21,888 nt of DNA from a virus. The number at the start of each line of letters is the position of its first letter. Within the stretch, counting starts at the first letter, position 1. Below, piece after piece: positions 499 through 21,786 of the stretch. The stretch is taken from IMG/VR virus record IMGVR_UViG_3300036651_001159, positions 1-21,888 of that record; one strand, given 5' to 3'. The notes below the pieces were generated by a model, which saw only the letters and a program-made list of their open reading frames with translations, had not been told where the DNA came from and made no database searches. Both the position numbers and the translations under genes were made by a program.

Positions 499-530
499 AA
501 GCGTATAGGTAACAGAGGTCCCCTAAAGGT

Positions 531-728: not shown

Positions 729-732
729 TGAA

Positions 733-897
733 ATGGCAAAAGAAGCAGCTCCTAAAAAGAAACCAGTTAACGCAAAACAGGCAGGTGCCGTTGCTGCGTT
801 TTTGAAGCAACAGAAGGGTAACACGGTTGCCGGTGCTCCCGCACTGCCAACCCCACAGTCCAATCCGGTTGCAACCGCTGACGACGACCAGGAGTAA
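733..897 (+). CDS. Tiny protein of 54 residues, basic N-terminus and acidic C-terminus, function unknown
   Basis: The frame runs from the ATG at 733 to the TAA at 895-897. The N-terminus is Lys-rich (KEAAPKKK), the middle has a short helix containing AFLKQQKG, then comes a Pro/Ala linker, and it ends in the acidic ADDDQE. Codon use looks like that of its neighbours. It fits tightly between the previous stop (four bases away) and the next start (five bases away), and AAAGGG lies just upstream of its ATG, all of which supports a real gene despite its size. The AGGAG site of the next gene (890-894) lies inside its last codons. I recognise no family. The charge layout would suit a DNA- or scaffold-associated minor protein, but that is a guess. 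Confidence 0.6.
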   Translation: MAKEAAPKKKPVNAKQAGAVAAFLKQQKGNTVAGAPALPTPQSNPVATADDDQE

Positions 898-902
898 CAG
901 CC

Positions 903-1922
903 ATGAACCTCCAAGGCGGCGGCTTAAACTTCCTGCAAGGCGGTAATCCTATATCGCTACAGAACGGTTCCTCCCCAGCAGTGCAAGGGGGGTCGTCGGC
1001 TGGCACTTTGGCGCAAAACCCGGTGTCCGGCATTGCTTTGAATAATCCGAACACTACTATTACTCAACCCGCTTCTACACCCGCCACCACTCCGAATCAA
1101 CAAACTAATAATCTCCCTCCAGCTCCTTCCACTACTCCCGCCGCTCCCGTATACCAAGATAAAACCAACAGTATTGCCGCTGATAACGCCGGACTGAATT
1201 CAGCAGCCACTTCCCGTGACACGATGCTGAGTTCAATCCAGAAGGCGCTTAGTGCCATGCTGGGGACTTATGATAGCGAGAAGGCTGCGGCCGACCAGTC
1301 GTATCAAAATGAATCTACCGCTAACGAGCAGGACTTACAGGGCAATAAAGAAAGTGCTCTCCAGGCAGCCCGGCAAGGTCGGCAGGGGTTGTTCGGCACG
1401 CTTGCCAGCTTAGGGGCGCTTAGTGGTACTGGTATCGACCTTGCGAACCATGCCGTTCAGCAGGGAGCCAACCAGGACCTTACGACAGCCGCCGATACTT
1501 ACGCGACAAACCAAAACGGGCTTGATAGCTCATACGGCACATGGAACAGGAACGATCAAGAGCGCCGCACCCAGGCGAATACTAACGCCGCGAATGATAA
1601 GCAAATCGCTGAGAATGATTACTATAAGAATGAACAAGCATACCTCACGAACCTGGCGAACGACTACAGTGCCGAGGGCAATGCGGCCCAGGCGAAGAAT
1701 TACACCGATAAGTTAGTGGCGGTCGCACCGCAAATAGCTTCCACGAACGTGCCGCAAGTTGACATCGGTTACTCAGGCGGCGCGTATACCGCCCCGACGC
1801 TTAATTCTTACTTAGGCAGAGCGAACAATACAACTGTTCAGTCAACACCAGGCGCAACACCTTCCGGCAGCGTCTTTAATATCCCCGGCCTCGTTGCCGC
1901 TCAAAAGAGACAGGTAGCGTAA
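903..1922 (+). CDS. Putative internal virion (ejection-type) protein, 339 residues
   Basis: Residues 1-85 are low-complexity Gly, Gln, Asn, Pro and Thr. Residues 86-255 are long Ala/Gln/Asn-rich helices (for example LSSIQKALSAMLGTYDSEKA and DYYKNEQAYLTNLANDYS), with a small-residue segment GLFGTLASLGALSGTGIDLA near 155-175 that could contact membranes. The C-terminus returns to Ser/Thr/Pro/Gly. This composition and the place directly before a giant virion protein are typical of internal or ejection proteins of short-tailed phages. No enzymatic motif is seen. The start follows AGGAG at 890-894. Its TAA shares one base with the ATG of the next gene (TAATG at 1920-1924), so the two are translationally coupled and probably made together. 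The role is inferred from composition and position, not from recognised homology. Confidence 0.6.
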   Translation: MNLQGGGLNFLQGGNPISLQNGSSPAVQGGSSAGTLAQNPVSGIALNNPNTTITQPASTPATTPNQQTNNLPPAPSTTPAAPVYQDKTNSIAADNAGLNSAATSRDTMLSSIQKALSAMLGTYDSEKAAADQSYQNESTANEQDLQGNKESALQAARQGRQGLFGTLASLGALSGTGIDLANHAVQQGANQDLTTAADTYATNQNGLDSSYGTWNRNDQERRTQANTNAANDKQIAENDYYKNEQAYLTNLANDYSAEGNAAQAKNYTDKLVAVAPQIASTNVPQVDIGYSGGAYTAPTLNSYLGRANNTTVQSTPGATPSGSVFNIPGLVAAQKRQVA

Positions 1923-4900
1923 TGGACTTCCTTGGCGGCCTTGGCAACATCTTCCATGCCATAGGCGGCTTCTTCAACGGTGGTAATAACCAACCGCAAC
2001 AGCAGCAGCCCCAACCACAGCCGCGTCCCGTTTCGATTGCGCCGCCAACTCAAGCGCCAGCGCAACTCTTTCGGCCTGGAGCAGCTCCGGCGCAGCAACC
2101 GAACCAAATTAGCCAAGCGCCCGCGACACCCCCACCGAATCAAATAAGTTTGCCGCCCGCGTTGCAAAAGTCTAATCCTCAACCCCTTACATCCTCACAG
2201 CCAAGCCCGTTCGTACACCAATTGGTAACTGGGGCATTGAAGCCCGCGCCCACTCCAGCTCCTACCGGTCCAGATATACCTGACGAGATAGTTTCCGGCA
2301 TAGTTAAGTCTCCCTTTACGCTTGCAAAGTCGGTGATAAGTCCGGTTATTGATGCCGGGAAAGAGGTTGTTGCTAGTGCGACTGGCAATCAGCAGGCGTA
2401 CCAAAATGCTAGTAATGACGCAGTTGCAAATAACATCTTTGCTCCACTTACGAAGGTAGGTGATCTTCTCGCATCGAATTTTACGGAGGGGTCGCGCGAA
2501 AACGCCGCTCAACAATCCGGTCAGCAGAGCGAACAGGATATGCTTAATTTCCTCATCAATAAATATGGGGATAGCCCGCAAGTCCGACAATACGCCCATA
2601 ACTGGGGTCAATACCAACAGCTCACGATGGAGAATCAAAACGCTCAGGATGATATTAAGACGCTTGGTGAATTCAACTTAACGCCTAATTCTGGCCCTCG
2701 TCACGTTCTACTAGCAGGCGCTTTGGCTGGGCTAGATGCCACGACGCCGTTCGCGCTTACGTCGCCTGATGCCATATTAAATCCCGTCGGTAAAGCGCTT
2801 GGCTTCCAGAAGGCCGCGCAATCAGCAACCGACGCGGCTGATGCGGCCACCGCTGCCGGGGAATCATTACATAATGCGGCACCAGCCGAGCCAAATCTTT
2901 TACCGCCAACTCCTACCACCTCCGATCTGTCAGAGGCCATCAAGTCAAATATGGGGAAGGTTAATAACGCACATTTCAGCGACAAGGTAATACAGTCTCA
3001 CTTAGACACTGGCATCCAAGACCCCTACAACTTAACAGTTAATGCTTTGGCGCGGATGACGAATAAGAGCGACATTCGGAATGTGGTACAAAGCTTAGCA
3101 GGAAGCGGTGCCGATAATAACACTGTGAACCGTTTGACGAAGGCATTTACTGCCGCGCAGACGCCAGATGAGGTGCATGGCATTATTGATAACATGACCC
3201 GTGAGGCCACGGAAGTTAGCCCTGGACTTACAAGCGTCAATCCCAACCAGGCGAATGACGCGGCTTCGCAATTGCTTCAGAAAGCGCAGGCTACAAATCC
3301 AGCAGTTTCACCAGCAGAAGTACCCCCGCAGCCTCCAGTAGAAGCATCAATGGGAACATCACCAGGAACACCACCGAATCCGACCGAGGGTCCGGTATCA
3401 GCCAATCCACAAATTTCCACACCCCAACCGTCAATGCCGGTACAGCCAATAGCCACACCGCCAACTGAGCCAATTCCTTCTTCCACGATTGTTCCATCTG
3501 AATCTCCTTTGCCTAACAATGTAGCACAACCGCCCACAGATGTCAATATGCCGCCATCAAACAGGACAGCACCGAACGCACCGAATATTAGAACTGCTCT
3601 TAATCAACGGTTACAGGACGCCGCTAAAATCGCAGGCGAGCCGACCGAACACAATGTCTTAGGGAATAAGGAGCTGCAACAGGCTGGAGAAAATGCGGTT
3701 GCTCAGGTTCCGATAAACGAGCTAGTGCAAAGGTATAGCGGCGTACCCGATTTATCGAAGACTGCTGACCAGGCTTATGCACGAGGGGCAATCATAAAGC
3801 TGTCCCAGGCACTTGAGGGGGCTTCTCCTGAAGATGCTGCCGCCATTAAGCAGGCTATGAATAATATTGGCGAGGGACTGGAAAAAGGCATATCCGGCGC
3901 TGGCCGGTCCATGAACTTCGCTCAGAGCATGATAGATAGTTTACCCCGCCAAGCGAAGATACCATTTGTCATTACCCGGCTCGACAATATACGCGAAGCC
4001 GCTGGGATGCCATTGATTAAAGATGACGTTGCGCTCCAGAGCCAAGTTACGTCGCAATTGGATAAATTATTTGCTCAACAGGAAGCTACTAAAGCTCGGA
4101 TTGCTTCCTTAGAAGACCACGCCAACACAGCGGCACTATCTGCGGAGAATGGCACAAAAGTCGATACGTCCGGTTTGCATAACCAACTTGCCACTGATAG
4201 GGCAACCTTGGCGAAACAGAACGGTGAGATAACTAAGTACTATCAGACGCTAACCCCCGGCTCAACGGTAGGGCAGAAGCTTAATGCCTTAGCCCGGACG
4301 GGTATGTTGAGCAGCCCAACGGGACGCGCGAATACGGTTGGTTTTGCTGGAGCGAATACCTTGTATCAGGGTGCACAGAATATTACACAAGGGCTTCTAG
4401 CTAAAGCCGTCAATCTCGTTAAGCCAGGGTCGGCCACAGATACCCTTCAAGGAAATTCCAAGGTGTTGTCGGGCGTCCGGCAAGGTGGGGCTGATATATG
4501 GGACAAGCTGCATGGAGCACAATTTGTTGACGATACACAGAAAGCATTAAAGGGAGATGCCAGTGCGTTGACCAACTTACGCAGTGGTCCAGGCACTAAT
4601 TACTTCCCAAAGACGACGAATCTGATAAACACCGCTTCTCATGCGTCCTCTGATCTGACACAGGGAGTGCGCGACCAACGACTATACCAGTTGGCTGTCA
4701 AAGAGGGGCAACAAAAGGGGCTAACCGGCGACATGCTGCAACAGTACGCTGAAGGCCGTTCGGCTGTTCCTACCCGTCAGATGTCGGCTAATGCAGATCA
4801 ATTATGGAAGTCTCTTAACCACATGAACGATAACCCGATCAGCAACACGCTGAATCGTCTCTCTAATGCGATTGACCCTGCGAAACTCCCCCCCGATGCG

Positions 4901-6490
4901 ACCTTTGGGGCGAAGATGGGCAACTTTATTGCCGGAGCTATTAAGAACCAAATCTTGCCGTTTACCAGTTTCTTAGGCGGCAACATGTGGAACTCAATTA
5001 CCGACAAAAACGTAGTAGCTTCATCCTTGAAGCTGCTCAATAGCGCAGCGCATGGCGACGTGGATGGTATTGTTGAGAATTTAGCAAAGACGGCCAATAA
5101 CGCTGCTTATACTTACGCGCTCGGTTATTTAATGACCCAACATGGCCTGCTAACCAACACCGATGCGAACGGCTATAACGACGGCGGCGCATATCTGCAC
5201 GTTGCCAACCGGTATATACCCGTCAACGATTTAGGCTTCTTCTCTCCAAGCCTTATACTCGGTAACGCATTGTATCAGGGCTTAAATGGCGGCGGCAATG
5301 CCATGCAACAATTCGGCAAAACACTTGGCGCTTCTATCCTGAACGGCTACAAATCGATTGGCGGTATGCAGCTAGGCGTTGATAATAACGCAGTTAAAAT
5401 ACAGTCTACCTTAACCGGAACCGGTAAGGTTCCCGGCGACCCGGCTGCCGCCGCAGCTCAGGCAGGCGAAGGTGTAGTTTCACAAGGTATCCCCGCCTTT
5501 ACGGGAGACATCAATGCTGTTCTTAACCATACGCCGCTAAACCCAACTGGCGAAGCGGCTCAAACGAAGATTACTAAAGGGCAGGACGGTCAATTAACCG
5601 CTACAGGGCATCTATCGACCGCCAAAGATATTATTCCTTCTTTGGGCGCTAGCCTCTTAAACCGCATACCAGTGGCTAGTCAACTTGCGCTTCCTCGCAA
5701 CCCTGCGGTCAACGCGCCCGACCTGCTTGATCGCTTCACCCGTGGCTCTAGCGTTGGTGCGCCCCAGGCCGCAGCCAAGGCGCAAGCCGCTACTGCTCTC
5801 AGTAAGGCGAAGGATAATTACAATAATGACATTCCGATGTTCAAGCCGGTAGCCGGGTCAGTCCCAAAGGGCTATAACTTCGATGACGTGGTGAATACCG
5901 ATATTCAAACCGGGAACTACGACAAGGCGGTGGCCGGGTTACAGGACAAGTTGAACACATTAGATAACACTAAAGACACCCCGCCGAGCACTAAACAGGC
6001 GCTACAGGATAGCATCACACAGCTTAACGTAGCAGACAAAAACAAAATACCATATTCCGATATGCAACTTTATAACAGCACTAGTAAAGCTGCATGGAAC
6101 GCTATGGGTAATCCCGCCAAGAGTACCTATGACCCAGCGACATATCAAAAATTGTGGGCTATTGACCAAGCGCTTGCACAGGCTGGCGTGGCTGGAGAAT
6201 TCCGTAGCATAAGCGGTTCGAGCGGCACCACTAAGATTAGTAGTAATCAGAAGTATTCGCTTACCGCTAGTAGTTCTAGTGGCTCCAAGTCGGCTGCTAA
6301 TAGGGCCGCTGCTTTGATTAAGAGCGATACGATCAGCGGTTTGCCGAGCCAACCGCGTGAGAGTTTCGTGTCCAACCTCAGCGCGAAGGGAATTACCACG
6401 CAAATCCCACAGATTAAATTGACCCCCCCGCAAGGGCTGATTAAGGCACACGCCATTTCAGTCGGCTTCCCAAGAGGAAATTACAACTAA
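1922..6490 (+). CDS. Giant internal virion protein, 1522 residues (probable DNA-ejection protein)
   Basis: This is the longest gene in the window. It begins with a short Gly/Phe-rich hydrophobic helix (MDFLGGLGNIFHAIGGFF), followed by a Pro/Gln-rich linker (about residues 22-135). A helical Ala-rich region follows, then a second long Pro/Thr-rich linker (about 465-560), and after that mostly helical segments, including a coiled-coil-like stretch near 709-735. Around residues 990-1130 is a hydrophobic, polyvalent-protein-like part containing PFTSFLGGNMW and, near 1059-1078, AAYTYALGYLMTQHGLL, which could span a membrane. The C-terminus is Ser/Lys-rich. Very large multi-segment proteins encoded beside the portal and neck genes of short-tailed phages are usually packaged in the head and leave with the DNA. 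I see no lysozyme or transglycosylase motif. A tape-measure role is less likely without tail-tube genes nearby. Confidence 0.6.
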   Translation: MDFLGGLGNIFHAIGGFFNGGNNQPQQQQPQPQPRPVSIAPPTQAPAQLFRPGAAPAQQPNQISQAPATPPPNQISLPPALQKSNPQPLTSSQPSPFVHQLVTGALKPAPTPAPTGPDIPDEIVSGIVKSPFTLAKSVISPVIDAGKEVVASATGNQQAYQNASNDAVANNIFAPLTKVGDLLASNFTEGSRENAAQQSGQQSEQDMLNFLINKYGDSPQVRQYAHNWGQYQQLTMENQNAQDDIKTLGEFNLTPNSGPRHVLLAGALAGLDATTPFALTSPDAILNPVGKALGFQKAAQSATDAADAATAAGESLHNAAPAEPNLLPPTPTTSDLSEAIKSNMGKVNNAHFSDKVIQSHLDTGIQDPYNLTVNALARMTNKSDIRNVVQSLAGSGADNNTVNRLTKAFTAAQTPDEVHGIIDNMTREATEVSPGLTSVNPNQANDAASQLLQKAQATNPAVSPAEVPPQPPVEASMGTSPGTPPNPTEGPVSANPQISTPQPSMPVQPIATPPTEPIPSSTIVPSESPLPNNVAQPPTDVNMPPSNRTAPNAPNIRTALNQRLQDAAKIAGEPTEHNVLGNKELQQAGENAVAQVPINELVQRYSGVPDLSKTADQAYARGAIIKLSQALEGASPEDAAAIKQAMNNIGEGLEKGISGAGRSMNFAQSMIDSLPRQAKIPFVITRLDNIREAAGMPLIKDDVALQSQVTSQLDKLFAQQEATKARIASLEDHANTAALSAENGTKVDTSGLHNQLATDRATLAKQNGEITKYYQTLTPGSTVGQKLNALARTGMLSSPTGRANTVGFAGANTLYQGAQNITQGLLAKAVNLVKPGSATDTLQGNSKVLSGVRQGGADIWDKLHGAQFVDDTQKALKGDASALTNLRSGPGTNYFPKTTNLINTASHASSDLTQGVRDQRLYQLAVKEGQQKGLTGDMLQQYAEGRSAVPTRQMSANADQLWKSLNHMNDNPISNTLNRLSNAIDPAKLPPDATFGAKMGNFIAGAIKNQILPFTSFLGGNMWNSITDKNVVASSLKLLNSAAHGDVDGIVENLAKTANNAAYTYALGYLMTQHGLLTNTDANGYNDGGAYLHVANRYIPVNDLGFFSPSLILGNALYQGLNGGGNAMQQFGKTLGASILNGYKSIGGMQLGVDNNAVKIQSTLTGTGKVPGDPAAAAAQAGEGVVSQGIPAFTGDINAVLNHTPLNPTGEAAQTKITKGQDGQLTATGHLSTAKDIIPSLGASLLNRIPVASQLALPRNPAVNAPDLLDRFTRGSSVGAPQAAAKAQAATALSKAKDNYNNDIPMFKPVAGSVPKGYNFDDVVNTDIQTGNYDKAVAGLQDKLNTLDNTKDTPPSTKQALQDSITQLNVADKNKIPYSDMQLYNSTSKAAWNAMGNPAKSTYDPATYQKLWAIDQALAQAGVAGEFRSISGSSGTTKISSNQKYSLTASSSSGSKSAANRAAALIKSDTISGLPSQPRESFVSNLSAKGITTQIPQIKLTPPQGLIKAHAISVGFPRGNYN

Positions 6491-6519
6491 AAAGTAAGCA
6501 TTAGAGGTAAGATATAGAC

Positions 6520-7323
6520 ATGGGACCAACGGGATTACTCATAGGCAGCCAAACGGCACAGTTACAGGCGTTCGCACAGAGCGTCTATAAGATGATTAAG
6601 AATCGTTATTATGACGACCTGACAAGCGCCGACGGTCAAACGTATCTGTCGGAAGTCGTGGATTGGCTGAATGAGTTTATTGATGAGCTAGAGACGGAGA
6701 TCAATGCCGACGGCGAACCAATTGATTGGATTTGGGTGCGGCGACCTGGCACTACCCTCGGCGTAGCCACTTATACCGACGGCAAGACGTTACCTTCAAT
6801 TGCCTGGGATAGCACGGATTATAACAATCTATGCGTCGGTACGGAGCGGTTTGTACAAATATTGAACCCAACCGATAGTACGCAGTCGGTCGCCAATTTC
6901 ACGGTTGTTGCGCCGGATGAAATGAGCAACGACAGTCGCCGCAATACCATCGACATGTGCACGCTCGTTAACGGCAATATCTACTTCAGCCGCCCCTTCC
7001 GGCAAGAGGAGAATGGTGGCACGATTATCGGTGACGTAACCACCTACTTACCGCGCGTCACTACCACCATTAACCCGACAACAAGTCAGATTATGGCTAC
7101 TAATACCGACATCTTTAAGACGGTTAAACCGCTAACGCTTTTGAAACTAGGGACCGTCAAAAACGCCATTCTGCCTGACATCGTGATGGGCGGCTTGAAT
7201 CCGTCGTATACGCAGAAGTATAACGACCTTCTGACAAACGCCATCAACCAGAGCACTCGTAGCGCAGTTTCTCCGACGGCCGACTATGATGATCTAGGCG
7301 GTATAGGTGGGATAGGATTCTAA
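6520..7323 (+). CDS. Head-to-tail adaptor (P22 gp4-like) candidate
   Basis: A 267-residue protein. The first 60 residues are helical (SVYKMIKNRYYDDL, then TYLSEVVDWLNEFIDELETE), the arrangement seen at the start of phage adaptor proteins that dock under the portal ring. A beta-rich middle begins with IDWIWVRRPGTTLG, and a helical segment (LLTNAINQSTRSA) precedes a Gly-rich end (GGIGGIGF). Its place, immediately before the nozzle protein and two genes before the portal, supports a neck role. The start is preceded by AGAGGT, about 12 bases upstream, as in the gene at 531. The next gene begins four bases after its stop. The family assignment rests on context and general pattern, so it could be another neck protein. 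Confidence 0.5.
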   Translation: MGPTGLLIGSQTAQLQAFAQSVYKMIKNRYYDDLTSADGQTYLSEVVDWLNEFIDELETEINADGEPIDWIWVRRPGTTLGVATYTDGKTLPSIAWDSTDYNNLCVGTERFVQILNPTDSTQSVANFTVVAPDEMSNDSRRNTIDMCTLVNGNIYFSRPFRQEENGGTIIGDVTTYLPRVTTTINPTTSQIMATNTDIFKTVKPLTLLKLGTVKNAILPDIVMGGLNPSYTQKYNDLLTNAINQSTRSAVSPTADYDDLGGIGGIGF

Positions 7324-7327
7324 AGAC

Positions 7328-9499
7328 ATGCTTACTGGCAAGATAGCCCCAGTTCCGCAGAAAGAAATTACTACGGTAGATGTGCCGAATTTCGCAAGCG
7401 GTTTGAATTTGAATGGCGCCCAACAAGCTCCCATTAACGCCATCATCGACAGCAAGGACGTGATGCTGACACCTGACGGCTTCTTGACGCCGCGCCCCGA
7501 TCTTAGCCCTTTCCTGCCAGATACCGTGGACATTGTATACCAAATTTACCCAGTGCTTTGGAACGGGCTGATTTACTACATCACCGCCGACGCCAAAACC
7601 AAAGGTAGCACGAGCGGTCAGATTATCTATTGTAAGGAAGGCGATACGGGTTGGACGGTCGCCGGGGCAGACACGGGCAGCGTCAACACGGTAACGGTTA
7701 ATAACGGCGGCAAACCGAAGTTCATCCGGGTGCTTGACACGGTGCTCATCCTAAATGGCGATAACGGCGACAAGTTGGCCGAGTTGGATTTGTCTACCTT
7801 CAAAGTGAAACAGTATACGGCGATAGCCGACCCGACAACGGCAATGACCGCTGCCGCCAGCGGCGGTATTACCGGCGCGACCAGTTCATCCAGCCCGAAC
7901 GTCTACCCGATTTATTATGCTTATTCTTACACTACCTCTACCGGCGAAACGAACATTTCCCCCATCCTCACCTACTATGTGAGCGACGTGCGCGATCACT
8001 GGGTTGGGCTTAAAGCCACCGGGGGAGCAGCTAATCCCGGTAAGTTAACCTTGACGCGGCCGGGGACAGCACCGACAGGCGCTCAGCACTGGAACCTATA
8101 TATAGCGTTATCTAGCACCGGCGGTACACCATCACTGGATGATATGCTGCAATTGGCTATTGGCCTCGACCTTAATCAGACTACATTTATTGATGACGGC
8201 TCCCTCTCCATTAACCTCGGCGGTTCGGTGCCTACCAACAACTCCACGGACGGCCCGCGCGTTTCCAATGGCATTATTGAGGAGGGCAACCCGATTTTGT
8301 TTGGCGACCGTGATGTGCCACAGAGCATCTGGATTGGCGGGGGCGGCGTTAATGCCTTGAGCTTCAGTTCAGCGCTTGGCGGCTACAAAGCACAGCCAGG
8401 GCTAGGGACAAACTTCTCAGTGACGCAGGTTATTGGTTTCCGCAACGGCCAAGGCATCCCATCCCTCACCGTCTTGTTCAGTAACACACAGGGGCTTGCC
8501 GAACAAGCGGTATTGCAACAGGAGACGGTCAATTACGGCAACCAGAGCTTTACGGTGTGGGGTGTTACCAGCCAGCACTACGGAGCTGCCGGTGTTGCGG
8601 CTCCTCATAGCGCCATTAACTACAACGGCAAATTAGTGTTTATGTCCACTGACGGCGTGATGATGATGAACACGCAGCCACTTCGCCAGAACGTCATCTC
8701 TACCGACAACCTGACCATCAAGACGATGGCGGCCTACATCCAACAGATTAAGAACTCAGCCATGAATGGGATTGTCGGCACCGCTTGGGACAACCGGTTT
8801 ATGCTCACGATGCCAAGCCAAGGCTTCGACACACCACAGCAGATTCTCGTCATGGACGATAACAGTAAGGTACCTGAAAACGACAACAACGGCGCATTTT
8901 ATACCTTTAATATCCCGGCCCAGTGGATTGATATTGTCAGTCCGGCAAATGAGGCAGCGTTTATCTATGTCACTCAGGGCAACCACTCTTACAAATTGCA
9001 ACCAGGCGCGGTTACGGCCGATACTATCGGCGGCGTGCCGACACCGTTCTCAACTAACGCCACCGGCTCGCTCGCACCTATGTATGGCGCAGCGGGGCGT
9101 AATCGCTGGCAGGCGACTGTTCAGACTGTTTTCTACGTTAGCGGTCTTGTCGGTTCTATCACCGTCGGCGTCAATTACCGTAACCAGAACGGCAAGATGA
9201 AGACTAAATCTAAGCCTTATCAGGGTCCGGCATTTGCCCCGACTAAAGGTGGCGGCTGGGGTGATACCCAGTGGACGTATGCCGGGTTCCCGGCCATCCC
9301 TGGCTACGCTGACGCGCCGAAGATTGATACGAGCCAGGTAGCCCTTGCGCCGGTAGACGTGCGTATCCCTCTCCAGATTGATGATATTACCAACGAGGCA
9401 CAGTGGTGGTACATCACCAACGCCGGGTTTAACAACTATAAATTGCGAGTGGTGAGTTACGAAGGTGTTGACCTTGGTGTCCGACCAGATTTGCAATAG
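7328..9499 (+). CDS. Tail nozzle / DNA-stabilisation hub protein (P22 gp10 or T7 gp12-like)
   Basis: A 723-residue, almost entirely beta-stranded protein. Residues 18-64 show the characteristic opening of this group: VDVPNFASGLN, then an Asp-rich strand turn (IDSKDVMLTPDGF) and TPRPDLSPF. In phage nozzle and hub proteins this segment introduces a beta-propeller that describes a path of known values. Repeated short strands with Gly/Asp turns follow, and the C-terminal third has long beta strands (residues about 560-723). Such proteins form the lower part of short tails, bind the adaptor ring, and hold packaged DNA until infection. It sits between the adaptor and portal genes. An AGGA at 7314-7317, inside the preceding gene, serves as ribosome site. 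The family is likely; the exact P22 or T7 type is not decided here. Confidence 0.6.
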   Translation: MLTGKIAPVPQKEITTVDVPNFASGLNLNGAQQAPINAIIDSKDVMLTPDGFLTPRPDLSPFLPDTVDIVYQIYPVLWNGLIYYITADAKTKGSTSGQIIYCKEGDTGWTVAGADTGSVNTVTVNNGGKPKFIRVLDTVLILNGDNGDKLAELDLSTFKVKQYTAIADPTTAMTAAASGGITGATSSSSPNVYPIYYAYSYTTSTGETNISPILTYYVSDVRDHWVGLKATGGAANPGKLTLTRPGTAPTGAQHWNLYIALSSTGGTPSLDDMLQLAIGLDLNQTTFIDDGSLSINLGGSVPTNNSTDGPRVSNGIIEEGNPILFGDRDVPQSIWIGGGGVNALSFSSALGGYKAQPGLGTNFSVTQVIGFRNGQGIPSLTVLFSNTQGLAEQAVLQQETVNYGNQSFTVWGVTSQHYGAAGVAAPHSAINYNGKLVFMSTDGVMMMNTQPLRQNVISTDNLTIKTMAAYIQQIKNSAMNGIVGTAWDNRFMLTMPSQGFDTPQQILVMDDNSKVPENDNNGAFYTFNIPAQWIDIVSPANEAAFIYVTQGNHSYKLQPGAVTADTIGGVPTPFSTNATGSLAPMYGAAGRNRWQATVQTVFYVSGLVGSITVGVNYRNQNGKMKTKSKPYQGPAFAPTKGGGWGDTQWTYAGFPAIPGYADAPKIDTSQVALAPVDVRIPLQIDDITNEAQWWYITNAGFNNYKLRVVSYEGVDLGVRPDLQ

Positions 9500-11340: not shown

Positions 11341-11646
11341 ATGAACAACGACGAAGAAGTACCATACCGCAGTCCGTTTAACTTGAGCCAAGTAACGGAA
11401 GACACCAAATTCTCGAAAGACGAGGAGGAGGAGAGCACTTTACGCCGCGTGTTCAAGCTCTTAGACAGCGCGATGGCCGACCTTGATAAGTGGCACGCAT
11501 TTGACATTGCTGAGAGCGAACTGAAGATAAAGCAACAGATTAAAGCCCATGCGATCGCAGCGGCAATTATTGCGCCATGCCTCGAAGAAGTCCGGCAAGC
11601 GCTAGCAACCGTTGATGAAAAATTTAGACGAAGGAACCAAAAATGA
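11341..11646 (+). CDS. Small helical protein between portal and scaffold, function unknown
   Basis: A 101-residue protein: an acidic, disordered start (about residues 1-30, rich in Asp/Glu) and then two predicted helices, one from STLRRVFKLLDSAMADLDKW and one running through AHAIAAAIIAPCLEEVRQAL, with a basic end (KFRRRNQK). I do not recognise a family. It overlaps the scaffold start by four bases (ATGA at 11643-11646), so it is translationally coupled to it and likely acts in head assembly. I chose the ATG at 11341. An in-frame GTG at 11314 would add nine residues, but its AAGG touches the start codon. Neither start has a good ribosome site. A small-terminase or portal-associated role is possible but not shown. 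Confidence 0.6.
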   Translation: MNNDEEVPYRSPFNLSQVTEDTKFSKDEEEESTLRRVFKLLDSAMADLDKWHAFDIAESELKIKQQIKAHAIAAAIIAPCLEEVRQALATVDEKFRRRNQK

Positions 11647-12774: not shown

Positions 12775-13272
12775 ATGGCACTTAAATGGATAAACATTAG
12801 AAGCGGCGAAAAAGTAGTCGCAGAGACGGAACCGCAAATTGCAGGGTTGTGGTCTAGCTCAGACCATAGTCCAAACATCACACAGGGGCAGGATTTCGGT
12901 TGGCGGCTTGCCCCGGAAATTGTCGTGGAAATGAAGAAGATCAAGCAGGACATGGACATGCTAGAGCGCATTGCCCGACGTTTCGGCAAGTCAGTAGACG
13001 ACGTGGTAGAGACGGATATTCTCACCTATATATCCAATAAGACTAAGTTGGAAGAAGCCCCGCAACCTGAAGCCAATCAGTTTGAGGACGAATACGATCA
13101 GCAGATTCGAGCACTTGAAGGCAAAACTGACAAGACGGTTCACGATTTATTCGCTGACGACGAAGGAGCTAAACCGCTTTCTATGATGTCTACCGAGGAA
13201 TTGGCGGCTGAACTAGAGCGTCGTAAAGCCGGTCCAGGGCCTACCACCACTACCACGACGACAACAAAGTAG
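12775..13272 (+). CDS. Unrecognised 165-residue head-region protein ending in a threonine run
   Basis: The N-terminal half looks structured: LKWINIRSGEKVVAE, a WSSSDHSPNITQGQDFGWRL segment, then a helix (EIVVEMKKIKQDMDMLERIA) and RFGKSVDDVVETDILTYI. The second half is acidic and disordered, with the helix STEELAAELERRKAG near 142-156, and it ends in Pro followed by eight threonines and a lysine. The Thr codons are mixed (ACC, ACT, ACG, ACA), so the run is kept at protein level rather than made by repeat slippage. A strong TAAGGAG site at 12762-12768 overlaps the scaffold stop. I recognise no family. Position after the scaffold suggests a minor capsid, head-completion or decoration protein. 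Confidence 0.65.
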   Translation: MALKWINIRSGEKVVAETEPQIAGLWSSSDHSPNITQGQDFGWRLAPEIVVEMKKIKQDMDMLERIARRFGKSVDDVVETDILTYISNKTKLEEAPQPEANQFEDEYDQQIRALEGKTDKTVHDLFADDEGAKPLSMMSTEELAAELERRKAGPGPTTTTTTTTK

Positions 13273-13302: not shown

Positions 13303-13548
13303 ATGGAAGACGATAAGACAACGACAACACCAACGACCGAGACGGAAGAAGATACCTCGGCAGCTCCAGAACCAACAACGACAACAACGACAACCTTTAT
13401 GCCGCAATCAGGGCTGGCACAATTTGCTCCGATTCAAACCCACGAGGAACGGATGGCTGATGCACGCGCAACAGCTATGGTGAACTATGCCAACGAAAAG
13501 GGGCTAAGTTCAACCGACCAGAGCACTACTGAAGAAGAAGTCGCTTAA
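13303..13548 (+). CDS. Small acidic protein of 81 residues with threonine runs, function unknown
   Basis: The first third is Thr, Glu and Asp with Pro (DKTTTTPTTETEEDTSAAPE), followed by seven consecutive threonines. A short possible helix (HEERMADARATAMVNYANEK) comes next, and the end is acidic (STTEEEVA). The whole protein is probably disordered. It shares the Thr-run feature with the gene just upstream, suggesting the two are functionally linked or related in their tails. AAGGAT at 13292-13297 precedes the ATG. Its stop codon overlaps the stop of the convergent terminase gene (four bases of overlap, 13545-13548). It is the last gene of the rightward block, and transcription probably ends at the hairpin some 65 bases further on. 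Confidence 0.7.
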   Translation: MEDDKTTTTPTTETEEDTSAAPEPTTTTTTTFMPQSGLAQFAPIQTHEERMADARATAMVNYANEKGLSSTDQSTTEEEVA

Positions 13549-14909
13549 AGATACGGGTTAAATTGCGGCGCGAGATCAATCTTTTCGCTGTCGTAAGTGA
13601 CCTCTTGAGAATCGGGACTGTACAAAAACAGTCCCGTTTTTGGGTCAAATTCCTGGTCAATAGCCGCATACATATAGCGGTGTTCGTCGGCGGCGTGGGA
13701 ATTGGTGTTGTGTTCCGGCCCCATGTAATCACCTGTTATGCCATTAAATTTACGCTTATACATACTCAGTTTCCGGCGCAAATCTTCGGTGGTCGCTTCG
13801 TTGAACTCGGTGTTTGGCGTAGCCGCCACCGCCCGTTTTATGCCTTCCTCTTTCAGTTCCCGGCGCAGGAGACTGGAGTTTGGTAAGCCGAGCTGCCGGA
13901 TTTTCTCGACACGTTCGATAGCATCGCTATCCCGCACCGCACCATCGTGCGGCAGGAAGTGCCACATGATGTTATACGGCTTGCTCTTGACGATAGCCAC
14001 CGTGCTTTCATAGGCGACGTCATGCGTCTCATAATAATCAATTACCCGTGGCCGCTTACTGACGTACTGCCAGAAGCCGACGGCCAACATATCGCTCATA
14101 CCAAGGTCCCAGCTCGTGAAACAGGGGTGTGCCGGGTCGTAGGGGAAGCGGCCGACATTTCCCCGGCGCATACCTAGCATTAGCGCTTCGGCGTAATAGT
14201 TGGTAGCGCTGGCCTGTCCCCAGTCACAGAGGAACTCTTGTCTAAACCAGAAGTCGTTGCCATTACGCGCAACTGTTTCCTCGCGGATGTCATCAAGCTG
14301 TTCTTTTGTCAGGTAGGCATCGGCGGTAACGCGGCTAGCGAACTGCTTGCCGCTACTTTTCATAACGCTTATGGCCCGATCGAACAATAGCTTAAACGTA
14401 CCGCCGGAAATGCCGTCTATCTTTGGCGTAGATTGAATAATAATCTGACCGCCGTTGACCAGCACGATAGGCCGGATAGCGTCAAGCGCTGCTACTGGGA
14501 TGTCTACGAACTCAGAGAAAATATAGATAAAGCCGTTGGCCCCGCGCAAGGCTTCTGGTTCACTTGCGCCAAGCAGGGTAAGCGTCGAGCCGTTCTTCAG
14601 CGTGATGTGCATATCTGTCGGGCTGTTGGTACGCTGCTCAACGAGGCCGCTAGGGATGTGATCGAGCACCGGCATACCATCATTACTAATCGTAGTCCAG
14701 AAGTTATCATACCCCTGCTTCTTTGTCGGCCAGACGATGACCACATTGATCGGCCGCTCCACCATTTTCTTAACGGCATAGGCAAAAGCGGTGAAATCCT
14801 TGCCGCCGCGTCGTGACCAACACCAGACGTTCATTACCGACCCCATGTCTAGGGCGGCCAGCGCTTCGGCTTGGTAGTCGCGTGGGATAAAGTTAAGCGG
14901 TATATTCAT
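13545..14909 (-). CDS. terL: Terminase large subunit (ATPase and nuclease)
   Basis: The 454-residue DNA-packaging motor. The ATPase domain shows a Walker A motif WSRRGGKDF (31-39). The Walker B strand FIYIFSEF (127-134) has Glu133 as the catalytic carboxylate, and a Ser stands where an Asp is usual. The coupling motif QSTP is at 159-162. The nuclease domain of RNase H type shows TSWDLGMSD (Asp268, Asp273), PHDG (Asp322) and HAADEHRY (Asp408). The length is normal for the family. It pumps DNA through the portal and cuts the concatemer. Its ATG shares one base with the stop of the AP2-type gene before it (TAATG on this strand), so the two are coupled. It lies on the strand opposite to all other structural genes, and its last codons contain a terminator that serves the other strand. 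Confidence 0.93.
   Translation of the reverse strand: MNIPLNFIPRDYQAEALAALDMGSVMNVWCWSRRGGKDFTAFAYAVKKMVERPINVVIVWPTKKQGYDNFWTTISNDGMPVLDHIPSGLVEQRTNSPTDMHITLKNGSTLTLLGASEPEALRGANGFIYIFSEFVDIPVAALDAIRPIVLVNGGQIIIQSTPKIDGISGGTFKLLFDRAISVMKSSGKQFASRVTADAYLTKEQLDDIREETVARNGNDFWFRQEFLCDWGQASATNYYAEALMLGMRRGNVGRFPYDPAHPCFTSWDLGMSDMLAVGFWQYVSKRPRVIDYYETHDVAYESTVAIVKSKPYNIMWHFLPHDGAVRDSDAIERVEKIRQLGLPNSSLLRRELKEEGIKRAVAATPNTEFNEATTEDLRRKLSMYKRKFNGITGDYMGPEHNTNSHAADEHRYMYAAIDQEFDPKTGLFLYSPDSQEVTYDSEKIDLAPQFNPYL
13613..13641 (+). terminator. Intrinsic terminator of the rightward block, inside the terL coding end
   Basis: CGGGACTG (13613-13620) and CAGTCCCG (13629-13636) form a perfect eight-base-pair stem with an eight-base loop (TACAAAAA), followed at once by TTTTT (13637-13641). 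The T-run is on the plus strand only, so the signal ends rightward transcription. It lies about 65 bases after the stop of the last rightward gene (13548). The same bases encode the terminase residues KTGLFLYSPD near its C-terminus. Confidence 0.85.
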
Positions 14910-15121
14910 TACTCAATCATCCCCGCGAACATCTGCTCGGCGTTCTTACGGACCTTTATCGCCATCACTTTGCTGGTATACCAACCGAGGTGAATACGGC
15001 GGCTATGGACGGTAATGGTTGCCTGGTAACGGTTTTTCTTCTGGTGGAAGTAGACGCCCGACACGCCTGTTTTACTATCACACCGGACGCTCCGGCTACT
15101 GTAGTCATTTTTGTACCCCAT
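14909..15121 (-). CDS. AP2-domain DNA-binding protein, 70 residues, no nuclease part
   Basis: A small basic protein with an AP2-type fold pattern: SKTGVSGVYF (16-25), RYQATITV (31-38), RRIHLGWYTS (41-50) and the closing helix AIKVRKNAEQM (54-64). This three-strand plus helix module binds DNA. In phages it usually forms one part of HNH homing endonucleases, but here no HNH catalytic part is present before or after it. The gene is first in the leftward unit and coupled to the terminase gene by TAATG, the slot where a small terminase is often found. It could be a regulator, a packaging-site recognition protein, or the remnant of a homing endonuclease. The ribosome site is weak and the promoter candidate is so close that the message may be nearly leaderless. 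Confidence 0.75.
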   Translation of the reverse strand: MGYKNDYSSRSVRCDSKTGVSGVYFHQKKNRYQATITVHSRRIHLGWYTSKVMAIKVRKNAEQMFAGMIE

Positions 15122-15132
15122 CGTTACTCTGA

Positions 15133-15141
15133 ATTATGCCA
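15133..15141 (-). promoter_or_regulatory. Candidate extended -10 promoter for the leftward AP2-terL unit
   Basis: On the minus strand TGGCATAAT forms a TGn-extended -10 element (hexamer at 15138-15133), preceded by an A-rich tract (complement of 15144-15154). No good -35 is seen at 17 bases. Transcription would start near 15126, leaving about five bases before the ATG at 15121, consistent with the weak ribosome site there. Support is the motif and the divergent spacer only. Confidence 0.35.
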
Positions 15142-15151
15142 CCTTTTTTGT

Positions 15152-15181
15152 TTGTAGTACAGCGGTGAAAGCGATTATGAT
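15152..15181 (+). promoter_or_regulatory. Candidate promoter for the capsid block
   Basis: TTGTAG (15152-15157), an 18-base spacer and TATGAT (15176-15181) lie in the 115-base divergent spacer before the major capsid gene. Four and five of six positions match the sigma70 consensus. A start near 15188 would give a leader of about 50 bases that begins at the inverted repeat described at 15188-15208. The capsid gene needs strong expression and has no upstream gene on its strand for about 1.7 kb, so a promoter must be near. Confidence 0.45.
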
Positions 15182-15187
15182 TAAAGC

Positions 15188-15208
15188 GTAAACAATAATA
15201 TTGTTCAC
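15188..15208. promoter_or_regulatory. Inverted repeat in the divergent spacer (operator or leader hairpin)
   Basis: GT-a-AACAAT, the three-base centre aat, then ATTGTT-c-AC: eight of nine positions in each arm pair. The AT-rich palindrome lies between the two divergent units and directly downstream of the capsid promoter candidate. A dimeric regulator binding there could block that promoter, or the RNA could form a short stem that protects the 5' end of the capsid message. It is not followed by a T-run, so it is not a terminator. No second copy was noticed in the window. Confidence 0.4.
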
Positions 15209-15236
15209 TATTAAATAATAGAGAAGGTATAAACAT

Positions 15237-16151
15237 ATGGCATGGTCATACGGCACAAAAACCGCGAATATAATGGACATCCCGTTGCATATCAGCAGCG
15301 TGGTTGCCCCCTATCTTGGCGATAACGGTTACAAATGGGACGGCGTGAACTCAGTTCGCGTTCTGTCAATCGCTGATGGCACACTCAGCAACTACGATGA
15401 AACGAACGCTTCTACGCCATTCGGCGCAGCTTCGCTAGTTGTACCTAACGAACAAGTGCTCCAGCTCGCTTATAACAAATCAATGCTGCTCCGCATCCAG
15501 CGCACGCAGATTCAAGACATCCCAGTTGGTCAGTTCGCAAAGCAGGTTGCTTTGCAGCAAGCTAACGACGTTTTCGTTCCTGCACACGACGCTTACTCAC
15601 TCGCTAAGATTTGGGCAGCTCGGCCAGCAGGCAATATCATTGCCCTCGATACGACTGACCCGACGGGCGGCAACCAGATTCCTGGTTACGCGCTTTCGTT
15701 CAGCAAGATGGTCAGCAAGTCACGCACCTACAGCGGTGGTAATGTATCCAACCTCATCGCTTGGGTATCATACACCTTCAAGGATACGGCCGGTGCACAG
15801 ATTAACTTCACTGGTTCTCAGACTGGCTACGCTGCCGGTAAGAACGGCTACCTCGGCAAACTCGCAGGTGTACCTTGCGTAGAAATCCCTGATAGCTACC
15901 TGTTCCCAGGTGTCCTCGCAATGGTTGTTGACAAGCGTGCTGTCATCAATGTCACACCAAAGATGGACCCGAAGGCTGGCGGTATGGTCATTGTCGACCC
16001 AGTTCCAGGCTTCAGCGGTATCGAAATCCAGCTCCGCGACCGAAGCGACACATTTGTACTCAACCAAAAAGTCAACTCAGTTGCCTCACTTGAAAACGCT
16101 GCAAGCACGACTGCAAGCACAACCGCTACGACTGTCACCGCTGGCGCTTAA
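15237..16151 (+). CDS. Major capsid protein (HK97-fold type)
   Basis: A 304-residue protein forming the capsid shell. It has the expected order: a short N-terminal arm, ASLVVPNEQVLQLAYNKSML, a spine-helix region (VGQFAKQVALQQANDVFVPA), then NGYLGKLAGVPCVEIPDSYL, the G-x-G-x-x-x-G-x-P pattern typical of the P-domain strand of these proteins. A strand-rich C-terminus follows, with DPVPGFSGIEIQLRD. Codons are well chosen and regular, and the gene has its own spacer with a promoter candidate and AAGG at 15224-15227, all signs of strong expression. The last 20 residues are an Ala/Thr/Ser tail (STTASTTATTV), probably flexible and exposed. It follows the divergent spacer rather than the scaffold gene, because the terminase module is inserted between them. 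Confidence 0.88.
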   Translation: MAWSYGTKTANIMDIPLHISSVVAPYLGDNGYKWDGVNSVRVLSIADGTLSNYDETNASTPFGAASLVVPNEQVLQLAYNKSMLLRIQRTQIQDIPVGQFAKQVALQQANDVFVPAHDAYSLAKIWAARPAGNIIALDTTDPTGGNQIPGYALSFSKMVSKSRTYSGGNVSNLIAWVSYTFKDTAGAQINFTGSQTGYAAGKNGYLGKLAGVPCVEIPDSYLFPGVLAMVVDKRAVINVTPKMDPKAGGMVIVDPVPGFSGIEIQLRDRSDTFVLNQKVNSVASLENAASTTASTTATTVTAGA

Positions 16152-16171: not shown

Positions 16172-17053
16172 ATGAAAGTGATATTGGCGCAGCCCTCTAT
16201 CCCCCGATTCCAATGGGAGCTAGAGGTGCTGCTCACCAATATCCGGCAGTTCACGGATATGGAAGTAGTGTTACTGTTCAGTAAGCCACATGACTATAAC
16301 AGCGCCGTACCTCCTTACTTGGTCCACAAGTATATGGGGGTACGCGCTTTTGTATACGAGGATAGGCGGTTTGACAAGAGTTACATCCCCGCTATCCGAC
16401 CGTACTTATGGTGGCAGTATTTAAGCAAAGACCCGGCACGAGAGCGGGAATCGTACTTTTACATTGATAGCGACGTGATTTTCCGTGAGTGGCCCAAGGT
16501 CAGTCAGTTGTCAGTTGACGCGAAGCACTGGGCCGGAAGCGACTGCGGTAGTTATATCGATTACAACTACATCAAGCAGTGCGAACGCGGGCCAGAGATC
16601 ATCGAGCGTATGGCACGCATCTGCAATATCACGCCGCAGCAAATGATCGGCGTACCAGGTATCGGAGCACATCTTGTCATTGCTCAACCGACGGCTGAGA
16701 TGTGGGAGAAAGCCTACAACCGCAGCCTCACTATTTGGCACTACTTCGATGGCGTGCATAGCAATATCCAGAAGTGGACGGCCGAAATGTGGGCGCAGCT
16801 CTGGACCATGGTAGAAGCGGGTATCACGCTAACCGCCCCAAAGGAACTGGATTTTTGCATGTCTACCGACCCGATTGAGAAATGGGACCGAGTAAAGATT
16901 TTGCACAATTCAGGCGTCACGGAGGATACTGGCAAACTGTTCTTCAAGGGCAAGTACCAATCAAGCGTGCCGTTCGGGGAAGACTTCAGTTGGGTTGACC
17001 AAACAAAGTGTTCGCACAGGTATGTCGATGCGATTGAAAGAGTGTTAATATAA
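16172..17053 (+). CDS. Putative GT-A type glycosyltransferase
   Basis: A 293-residue soluble protein with a glycosyltransferase outline: a beta-strand start (MKVILAQPSIPRF), an alternating helix/strand first half, then YFYIDSDVIFREWP with the DxD motif (Asp99, Asp101) that binds a metal and nucleotide sugar. The second half has GVPGIGAHLVIAQPTAEMW (159-177), a Trp-rich acceptor region, and ILHNSG with His245, similar to the C-terminal metal or substrate residue of such enzymes. There is no signal peptide or membrane segment, so it acts in the cytoplasm. It is 20 bases after the capsid gene with no terminator between them, so it is probably co-transcribed, and it is followed by tail genes. It may modify a virion protein; modification of phage DNA or host surface sugars is possible. 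The enzyme class is fairly clear, the acceptor unknown. Confidence 0.75.
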   Translation: MKVILAQPSIPRFQWELEVLLTNIRQFTDMEVVLLFSKPHDYNSAVPPYLVHKYMGVRAFVYEDRRFDKSYIPAIRPYLWWQYLSKDPARERESYFYIDSDVIFREWPKVSQLSVDAKHWAGSDCGSYIDYNYIKQCERGPEIIERMARICNITPQQMIGVPGIGAHLVIAQPTAEMWEKAYNRSLTIWHYFDGVHSNIQKWTAEMWAQLWTMVEAGITLTAPKELDFCMSTDPIEKWDRVKILHNSGVTEDTGKLFFKGKYQSSVPFGEDFSWVDQTKCSHRYVDAIERVLI

Positions 17054-19317: not shown

Positions 19318-21786
19318 ATGGCAGATATACTCGTTAGCAGTGAAAGCGGCACTCAAGCTATCATTCAGACTGCCACACCAGCCGCTATCGTAGTGGAGGG
19401 AGTGCTTAAAGGCGCCCCCGGCGCTATCGGACCACAGGGAATCCAAGGGGTTCAGGGAATCCAGGGCGTGCCTGGTTCGAGATGGTACGAGGGCACGGGC
19501 GCTCCAACCACCACCTATAGCAACGGCGACTTATACTTAAACACAACCACCGGCGACATTTACCAACAGGCTGCCGGAGCCTGGGGCAGCCCAATTGGTA
19601 ATATCGCAGGACCAGCCGGCCCAGCCGGACCAACTGGCCCAGCCGGACCAACTGGCGCAACCGGCCCCCAAGGCCCGGCTGGCGTTGGCGTGCCGATCGG
19701 GGGAACTACCGGCCAGGTCCTGGCGAAGAACTCGAATACTAACTACGACACCGGCTGGACCAGTTCCAGCTCGATTCCCAGCGGCAGCGCTGGCGGCGAC
19801 CTCACCGGCGCTTATCCAAACCCGACGCTCGACCTCACCAAAGCCCACACCTGGACGGCCAGCCAGACGCTGCCACTGATTGACGCCGGCGGCCAGGTCC
19901 TCAACGTCTTCGCTTACGGGGCCAAAGGCGACGGCTCGACCGATGATTCGACGGCCATTAATAGCGCCCTGACCGCCGCTGCCGTCGGTGACACCGTGCT
20001 CCTCCCCGCCGGTCACATCTATAGCATCGCCCACCAGTTGGTAGTGCCGCCCTACATCACCCTCCAGGGCGGCCACGGCAACCGTACCGACAATACCCAG
20101 CTCAGCACCACGCTCCGCCCGACCGCTGGCTTTACCGATGACGCGGCGATCCGCTTCAAGGACAAGGAAGAAGCCGGCTATGCCGTGGAGAATGAAGGTA
20201 TCCGCATCCGCAACCTGACGATTGACATGTCACTGACCGCCGGCACCATCTCCGGGATCAAGGCCAGCGGCTACGTCCACGGCGTGGTCCTCGATAACGT
20301 CTGCGTCCAGAAAGCGCCGTACCGGGGCTTCTACTGCACCACCTACACCCGCCTCAGCAGCGTCACCTACCATCCCTACTCCTGGAACGTCTGGAACTGC
20401 TTTGCCTGGCAGTGTGGCGATGTCGGCTTCTTCTTCGGCAACCAGCAGGCCGACATGACGCTGGTCAACTGTGAGGCCCTCGGCTGCACCGGCAACGGCT
20501 TCGAGCTGACCTACTGCGCCAACAGCCACTTCATCGGCTGCCGGGGCGAGTGGTGCAACAACGGCTTCCACCTGACCGGCTCCTGGGGCACCGGCACCGG
20601 CTCCGGCGGGGCGTTGTTCACCGATTGCTCGACCGACCGCAACACCTTAAATGGCGTGCTGATCGACGCCACCGGCAACACCCCGATCCTGTTTATCGGC
20701 CTGATGACCCGCCGCGATGGCCGCAACGCCAAGCTCGGCGGTGGCGGTTACGCCGGGGTAAAAGTCAGCGCGGCGACCGTCCCGGTGGTTATTAACGGTA
20801 TCACCTGCTACCCAGGGGTCGATGACGACGGCACCGGCGTCAACTCGCCGGACTACGGTTTCACCGCCAGCGGCAGCACCTCGGTAGTGATCAATTCTGG
20901 GTACCTACAGGGCCAAGTGGCCGGCTATAACGACGGTGGCACCAACACCGTGCTGCGACGGGGGATGAACCTCATCACCGCCACCGGCGCGACCTCCGCC
21001 CCGACGATTGCCACCTCTAACCCCTGGAATACCAACGGCAACGGCACGATTGCCCTGAATACCGCTGACCAGGCGGCGCTGTCGATTACCAACTCGGCCG
21101 GCAACACCGGCCTGTCGCTGATTGATGTCACCGGCTCGGCCAATACCTCGCGGATGCTCGATGGCCAGGTGACTGGCGACACCACCCGCCGCTTCGATCT
21201 GCGGGTTGACGGGCAGATGCAGTGGGGTCCAGGTAGCGCCAGTCGGGACACCACGCTGGCTCGGTCGGGCGTCGGGGTCCTGGCCCTGACTGGCGGCCTG
21301 ACCATCTCTGCCCCCGGCACAGCCGCCGGCTCTGCCGCCACGATTGACGGCACCCAGACGCTGACCAGTAAGACGATTGCGGCCGGCAGCAACACAATTA
21401 CCGGCCTGGGCGTCTCCAACCTCGGTGGCGTCTCCGGCACCCCGAGCTCAACCACCTACCTGCGCGGTGACGGCACCTGGTCAACCCCGGCCGGCGGGAG
21501 CGGTTCGGGCATTACCCGTTCCGTCGCCTCGATTTCCACCGCGACGACCGCCGGTTCGAGCGCGGTCACTGACTATGTGTACCTGGTGTCCGGCACGACC
21601 ACCTTGACCCTGCCGACTGCCGTGGGTAATTCCAACTGCTACACCGTCAAGAACGTTGGCACCGGCACCGTCACCATCGCCACGACCTCAGCCCAAACCA
21701 TCGATGGGAGCGCCTCTGCCAGCCTGCCGGTCAAGTACACCAGCGTAGATTTAATATCCGACGGCGCTAACTGGAACGTCGTCTAA
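19318..21786 (+). CDS. Tailspike with collagen-like repeats and pectate-lyase-type beta helix
   Basis: An 822-residue receptor-contact protein. In order: an N-terminal virion-attachment part (1-31); a first collagen-like G-x-x stretch (about 32-54); a module with WYEGTG, DLYLNTTTGDIYQQ and W (55-98); a second collagen-like stretch (98-123); a linker; and a pectate-lyase superfamily start VFAYGAKGDGSTDDSTAINS (197-216). A right-handed beta helix follows to about 560, then repeat-like strands with LRGDGTWSTP (about 713-722) and a tip domain ending in SDGANWNVV. Such proteins are trimers that bind and often cleave surface polysaccharide; the active site cannot be read from sequence. No good ribosome site is seen, so translation is probably coupled to the previous gene. 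From about 19600 to 21740 the base composition is distinctly richer in G and C than elsewhere, suggesting a domain exchanged from another source. Confidence 0.82.
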   Translation: MADILVSSESGTQAIIQTATPAAIVVEGVLKGAPGAIGPQGIQGVQGIQGVPGSRWYEGTGAPTTTYSNGDLYLNTTTGDIYQQAAGAWGSPIGNIAGPAGPAGPTGPAGPTGATGPQGPAGVGVPIGGTTGQVLAKNSNTNYDTGWTSSSSIPSGSAGGDLTGAYPNPTLDLTKAHTWTASQTLPLIDAGGQVLNVFAYGAKGDGSTDDSTAINSALTAAAVGDTVLLPAGHIYSIAHQLVVPPYITLQGGHGNRTDNTQLSTTLRPTAGFTDDAAIRFKDKEEAGYAVENEGIRIRNLTIDMSLTAGTISGIKASGYVHGVVLDNVCVQKAPYRGFYCTTYTRLSSVTYHPYSWNVWNCFAWQCGDVGFFFGNQQADMTLVNCEALGCTGNGFELTYCANSHFIGCRGEWCNNGFHLTGSWGTGTGSGGALFTDCSTDRNTLNGVLIDATGNTPILFIGLMTRRDGRNAKLGGGGYAGVKVSAATVPVVINGITCYPGVDDDGTGVNSPDYGFTASGSTSVVINSGYLQGQVAGYNDGGTNTVLRRGMNLITATGATSAPTIATSNPWNTNGNGTIALNTADQAALSITNSAGNTGLSLIDVTGSANTSRMLDGQVTGDTTRRFDLRVDGQMQWGPGSASRDTTLARSGVGVLALTGGLTISAPGTAAGSAATIDGTQTLTSKTIAAGSNTITGLGVSNLGGVSGTPSSTTYLRGDGTWSTPAGGSGSGITRSVASISTATTAGSSAVTDYVYLVSGTTTLTLPTAVGNSNCYTVKNVGTGTVTIATTSAQTIDGSASASLPVKYTSVDLISDGANWNVV
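19612..19683 (+). repeat. Tandem repeats encoding the second collagen-like segment
   Basis: An 18-base unit (CCAGCCGGACCAACTGGC) occurs twice in perfect tandem at 19621-19638 and 19639-19656, flanked by degenerate nine-base versions. Each nine bases codes for G-P-A or G-P-T triplets in frame. Similar but less exact repeats (GGAATCCAAGG / GGAATCCAGGG) at 19439-19467 encode the first collagen-like part. Repeat copy number could change by recombination and alter spike length. Confidence 0.8.

Follow-up and report, generated by a model that had tools for sequence, protein, structure and literature searches.

An AP2-only DNA-binding protein encoded directly ahead of terL in one phage clade: probable endonuclease origin and a candidate role in regulating its own operon

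The AP2-terL locus

We analysed a 21.9-kb fragment of a viral genome (21,888 nucleotides, referred to here as the window), in which a small gene for an AP2-type protein directly precedes the large terminase gene. Positions 4-7765 are identical to part of contig IMGVR_UViG_3300037069_000968 (loci L041 and L120; 100% over 7,762 bp); this contig continues the virus leftwards and has the replication genes. The locus comprises the following features:

13545-14909, minus strand: terL, large terminase, 454 aa (phrog_2, E 9e-28); its start overlaps the AP2 stop (TAATG)
14909-15121, minus strand: AP2-only DNA-binding protein, 70 aa; disordered at 1-16, beta-beta-beta-alpha at 22-64
15122-15236, no strand assigned: intergenic region from which AP2-terL and the major capsid gene diverge
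15237-16151, plus strand: major capsid protein gene (phrog_422, E 5e-5), divergent from AP2-terL

The AP2 gene is the first of a two-gene unit with terL. The junction between them reads GAGTAATGAAT, with a single base of the stop/start overlap TAATG common to both reading frames, and the AP2 gene contains, towards its 3' end and ahead of terL, an SD-like G-rich stretch. The sequence-only reading of this DNA had described a 70-residue AP2 ORF that has no HNH part and shares one base with the terL start, and this description was borne out by the ORF check, the PHROG match and the predicted fold.

The match of the protein to Pfam AP2 (PF00847) is weak (14.6 bits, E 0.042; cut-off 33.3). It matches the AP2 part of phrog_99, a phage HNH-endonuclease family, with E 5e-13 (profile positions 205-257 of 383), and further PHROG matches are to phrog_4578 (E 2e-10) and phrog_374 (E 1.4e-7). 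What is matched in the HNH-AP2 profiles is their C-terminal part, namely the AP2 module and the linker preceding it. No HNH nuclease domain was found in the 70-aa ORF or in the adjoining intergenic DNA. Javan629 was considered as a source of a short AP2 protein from a known phage and was rejected because the match belongs to a 200-aa ORF.

In the predicted structure, strands at residues 22-26, 31-38 and 41-48 form a three-stranded sheet packed on one helix (51-64). Residues 1-16 are disordered, and mean pLDDT is ~75-92 per ten-residue block from residue 21. The best matches among solved structures are the AP2 domains of Arabidopsis TEM1, WRI1 and ATERF1 (Z 5.3-5.5; rmsd 1.5-1.8 over 46-47 residues). 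In the complex of ATERF1 with DNA, the base contacts are carried by the second and third AP2 strands. Residues that are invariant in all six members of the clade described below cluster on these two strands (A34 T35 I36 T37, H39 and R41-W47), and Y24, H26, K29 and R31 are also invariant; the strands predicted to contact DNA are nearly invariant, as in ATITxHxRRIHLGW.

Several other features of the window were recorded. A strong terminator-like hairpin (13613-13636, plus strand; 9 pairs and a T run) is contained in the 3' end of terL, shortly after the portal-scaffold gene run finishes at 13548. Beside the capsid gene is a core gene (16172-17053, plus strand) that is 42-78% conserved in relatives and has no Pfam match; a YIDSDVIF stretch in its product resembles, by eye, the glycosyltransferase DxD motif. 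The product of the gene at 19318-21786 (plus strand) is probably a tail spike, in which a collagen-like stretch and a domain resembling pectate lyase (PF12708, E 8e-15) were recognised.

Distribution and origin of the AP2 gene

TerL searches, which gave 16 and then 62 loci, placed the AP2 ORF in six of six members of one clade and nowhere else among more than 60 TerL relatives. The five nearest relatives of the window virus (terL 70-79% identical) have an AP2 ORF of 66-70 aa in the same place with 66-74% identity, and their AP2/terL junction is TAATG, or ATGA in one. The ORF is therefore not a chance one, since both its sequence and its start/stop junction recur in five relatives. The major capsid protein is 85-93% identical within this clade. 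In all other loci the AP2 ORF is missing from the slot, and profile searches of whole records returned only the six. The gene is also missing from seven complete sister or outgroup genomes with orthologous TerL (48-64% identical), which are 35.7-40.2 kb long and were judged complete by identical ends of 51-127 bp. Conservation of the AP2-terL pair among related phages, which had been suggested as a check, holds throughout one clade but does not extend to the other relatives.

In a TerL tree of 52 rows the AP2 phages form a single branch (SH-aLRT 97) that is nested within phages lacking AP2, and a single gain of the gene in the clade ancestor is the simplest account. The spacing of the neighbouring genes was also compared. 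In divergent AP2-less relatives the capsid and terL starts are 84-132 bp apart at 24 of 26 loci, the exceptions being L109 (256 bp) and L098 (816 bp, with an HNH gene in the interval). The corresponding distance in the AP2 clade is 309-329 bp, the excess being the AP2 gene itself.

Two further observations concern the TerL relatives. The orientation of terL flips in place: the gene points the same way as the head genes in about 23 relatives, and in the window's clade and a third clade it has the same neighbours but the opposite orientation; the TerL tree does not root the direction of change (loci compared: window 13545-14909; L078-L099, L117 and L118; L103-L115). The sole TerL relative in genome_contigs (L136, 44% identity) is a 17-kb contig binned in a Saccharibacteria MAG, which is a weak hint at the host group, as binning errors are possible.

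Across pairs of AP2 sequences pN/pS is 0.14-0.36, compared with 0.11-0.30 for terL, although these ratios are only a rough measure because dS is saturated in many pairs. Judged from them, purifying selection acts on the AP2 sequence about as strongly as on TerL, and the gene is not a decaying remnant. Such selection could reflect regulation or another role, in packaging, nucleoid binding or the control of host genes.

HNH genes are found at the same edge of terL in relatives. L098 has an HNH gene (188 aa, with a C-terminal HTH) between the capsid gene and terL, and the HNH gene of L093 (189 aa) ends 3 bases into terL. In L084 an HNH-AP2 gene (238 aa) lies on the opposite strand at the 5' edge of terL; its match to phrog_374 (E 6.6e-37) spans the HNH domain and the region also matched by the window AP2 protein. 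HNH or HNH-like Cys-rich genes were recorded at L084:3323-4039, L093:3435-4004, L095:2058-2417, L098:3425-3991 and L118:1872-2207. Such genes are thus inserted in relatives at several places near portal, scaffold and terL, which suggests a homing hotspot. An AP2 gene that comes and goes among relatives in the manner of a homing-endonuclease remnant had been named in advance as evidence against a packaging role. This is largely the situation observed, in that HNH and HNH-AP2 genes occupy the same spot 5' of terL in relatives; AP2 itself is kept in 6/6 clade members. The other such evidence named was a clear small terminase elsewhere in the genome, for which candidates by position and by core conservation are described below.

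Barth et al. (2023) report that HNH-AP2 homing genes are associated with terminase genes, that the splitting of an endonuclease gave rise to an AP2-only ORF (ICP1 gp115/gp116) and that the DNA-binding domain of a homing endonuclease was co-opted as the capsid repressor CapR (PMC10448857). The AP2 protein of the window very probably derives from the DNA-binding module of a phage HNH-AP2 homing endonuclease. Because no HNH remnant adjoins the AP2 gene, its arrival as part of a full endonuclease is inferred from family and position.

Small-terminase candidates and a conserved element ahead of AP2

We compared core genes between six sister genomes and the AP2 clade, which was represented by G004, G005 and the window virus (the window plus the overlapping contig). 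All 17 gene families that are present in every one of the six sister genomes are also present in the AP2 clade. Because all of these families are retained, no core gene was exchanged for AP2, and the sisters' small terminase (TerS), whichever protein it is, is therefore still present unless it has diverged too far for recognition. The sequence-only reading had seen no small-terminase candidate besides AP2 except perhaps the helical protein at 11341-11646. That view was incomplete, because three conserved, uncharacterised core proteins could fill the role, none of them with certainty:

12775-13272, plus strand: conserved 165-aa core protein (alignment A5), a positional small-terminase candidate
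1-207, plus strand: 3' end of a conserved 253-aa core protein (alignment A6), an alternative candidate
11341-11646, plus strand: helical core protein encoded between the portal and scaffold genes (alignment A3); named earlier as an alternative

A homologue of the 12775-13272 protein is encoded directly upstream of terL, on the same strand, in 16 of the 19 co-oriented loci inspected; an HNH gene lies between the two in a further two loci, and the homologue was not detected in the remaining one. The 253-aa core protein, of which the overlapping contig L041 has a full copy, carries two similar motifs, AIKLALNRIDGKLKTPV and ALNEVFDQIDGKLVETI. Its structural model is moderate (pLDDT 68, pTM 0.51), and a fold search with it in PDB and BFVD gave no convincing match. 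There are weak DUF5681 hints for this protein; we found no literature tying DUF5681 to TerS, and it could not be aligned to the TerS annotated in Alteromonas phage ZP6. When sequence profiles for the 165-aa, 110-aa and 253-aa core proteins were compared with PDB sequences, no meaningful match emerged, and the nearest annotated phages with TerL relatives (HTVC010P, ctVRi840 and BUCT708) have no annotated TerS adjoining terL. By conservation and position, the 12775-13272 protein and the 253-aa core protein appear to be better TerS candidates than the AP2 protein, although they are candidates only.

The divergent region in front of AP2 contains one further feature:

15133-15143, minus strand: GGTGGCATAAT, an 11-bp candidate operator and promoter, invariant in 6/6 members of the AP2 clade

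Aligning the divergent region shows no long invariant block other than this element, which covers 11 columns; an invariant run of this length arose in 1 of 20,000 shuffles of the invariant columns. Each AP2-clade record has a single copy of the element, 11-14 bases upstream of the AP2 start codon, and no other fetched locus contains it. Its 3' part reads as an extended -10-like TGGCATAAT, and a hexamer that weakly resembles a -35 box (TGTACT in the window) is found 17 bases further upstream, so the element may be a promoter, an operator or both. A consensus promoter scan of the window did not list a promoter ahead of AP2; the putative promoter is argued from conservation across the clade. AP2 domains are said to prefer GC-rich sites (PMC10448857), and the GGTGGC within the 11-mer is G-rich and would fit this preference, which is suggestive only.

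In the sister clade, terL is preceded by another conserved box, TATGnTAnnAT, 5-10 bases before its ATG; as the box differs, the terL leader changed when AP2 arrived. In many sister phages (L064-L077) this extended -10-like box is accompanied by a conserved GCAATAG. A box ending so near the ATG suggests a near-leaderless terL mRNA in these phages.

Interpretation and comparison with known systems

The first proposal made for the AP2 protein was that it serves as a small terminase or recognises the packaging site, and this is not supported, given that the gene is restricted to one clade and was added without loss of any core gene. In its full form the proposal makes the AP2 protein the clade's small terminase or packaging-site subunit, which would bind pac or cos and pass the DNA to TerL. 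The position of the gene and its overlap with terL in 6/6 members, the conserved DNA-binding face and the lack of an annotated TerS are as expected for such a subunit. However, AP2 is absent from the seven complete genomes with orthologous TerL, and the retention of all 17 core genes of the six sister genomes means that nothing was replaced. The protein itself is only 70 aa long with a disordered N-terminus, no oligomerisation segment is predicted in it, and it has no TerS-family match, PHROGs giving only HNH and unknown families. We therefore regard this role as most unlikely, and the AP2 protein is almost certainly not the sole small terminase. It is also very improbable that an AP2 domain from a homing endonuclease took over or joined packaging-site recognition as an accessory subunit beside an unrecognised core TerS. 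Adjacency to terL alone is thus an unsafe basis for naming a small terminase.

Other explanations leave packaging to the core proteins. The AP2 ORF could be a passive remnant, kept only because its translation is coupled to that of terL, with an inert product. The TAATG or ATGA overlap in 6/6 members, the SD-like G-rich stretch within its 3' end and the change of leader from the promoter-like box of sister terL genes are all compatible with this, but AP2 pN/pS is as low as that of terL, and coupling alone would not demand that the fold and binding strands be kept so strictly; we consider this unlikely. A still-active selfish part, in which the AP2 protein works with a nuclease encoded elsewhere (through collaborative homing or as an HK97-gp74-like terminase partner), is highly unlikely. 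HNH genes do adjoin terL in relatives, HNH proteins work with the terminase in HK97 and collaborative homing has been described (PMC10448857), yet the AP2 gene has been inherited vertically within one clade with no spread beyond it, and no HNH gene was seen in its neighbourhood, the part of these genomes that was inspected for one. Finally, the protein could be a regulator whose targets lie elsewhere, at further phage promoters, in the host chromosome or in a competing phage, with the terL operon merely carrying its gene. The conserved binding surface would suit this role, and such domains have been co-opted against rivals, as in CapR (PMC10448857). Against it, the only clade-specific invariant motif seen, in the divergent region that was aligned, lies directly ahead of the protein's own gene, and we judge such action improbable.

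Regulation of terminase expression by the AP2 protein, which the sequence-only reading had offered as a second possibility, is now the preferred reading and appears plausible, because the gene evolves under purifying selection, heads the terL operon and is preceded by a unique conserved 11-bp element that overlaps a putative promoter. An HNH-AP2 gene would have landed at the 5' edge of terL and would then have lost its nuclease part. The terL gene would be read through the AP2 gene and probably be translationally coupled to it, as the stop/start overlap and the SD-like stretch lead us to infer, and the AP2 module would have been retained for DNA binding. By binding the candidate GGTGGCATAAT over the promoter, the protein may autoregulate AP2-terL and perhaps also tune the divergent capsid gene. 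Taken as a whole, the account in which the AP2 module of an HNH-AP2 homing endonuclease became fixed ahead of terL in the clade ancestor, binds this putative site and tunes its own operon has, in our estimate, a little better than an even chance of being right; for local regulation by the protein as such, the sequence comparisons put the chances at roughly even. The 11-mer may instead be a promoter only, its 3' part reading TGGCATAAT.

If the regulatory reading is true, a phage has domesticated the DNA-binding half of a selfish endonuclease to regulate its own packaging gene. Plant AP2 factors have been proposed to originate from endonucleases by the same step, as has CapR in a phage satellite. 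The sister phages without AP2, the clade with AP2 and the relatives with intact HNH genes at the same edge form a clean before/after set.

Among known systems, the HNH-AP2 homing endonucleases (IPA-HNH; PHROGs 99, 374 and 4578) share with the window protein the matching AP2 module and linker and the site beside terL that is typical of the group (PMC10448857), whereas the window protein has no HNH nuclease domain and is inherited clade-wide rather than sporadically. The split HNH-AP2 gene of ICP1 (gp115/gp116) likewise yields an AP2-only ORF (PMC10448857), but in ICP1 the HNH half remains next to it and the two are regarded as an inactivated gene, whereas in the window's clade the HNH half is gone and the AP2 half is under purifying selection. 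HK97 gp74-type HNH proteins are also encoded by homing-endonuclease-like genes beside the terminase genes, although the window protein differs in having no nuclease domain. Phage small terminases (phrog_51 type, T7 gp18) are similar in that the gene for a DNA-binding protein lies directly upstream of terL; the AP2 protein, in contrast, has no sequence match to them and no oligomerisation part, and is missing from relatives that share this TerL. CapR, the PLE-encoded capsid repressor directed against phage ICP1, is likewise a homing-endonuclease DNA-binding domain without its nuclease, linked to late structural genes. However, CapR has a T5orf172-type zinc-finger domain, is satellite-borne and acts against a phage, whereas the AP2 domain of the window is phage-borne and its action as a repressor is a proposal only.
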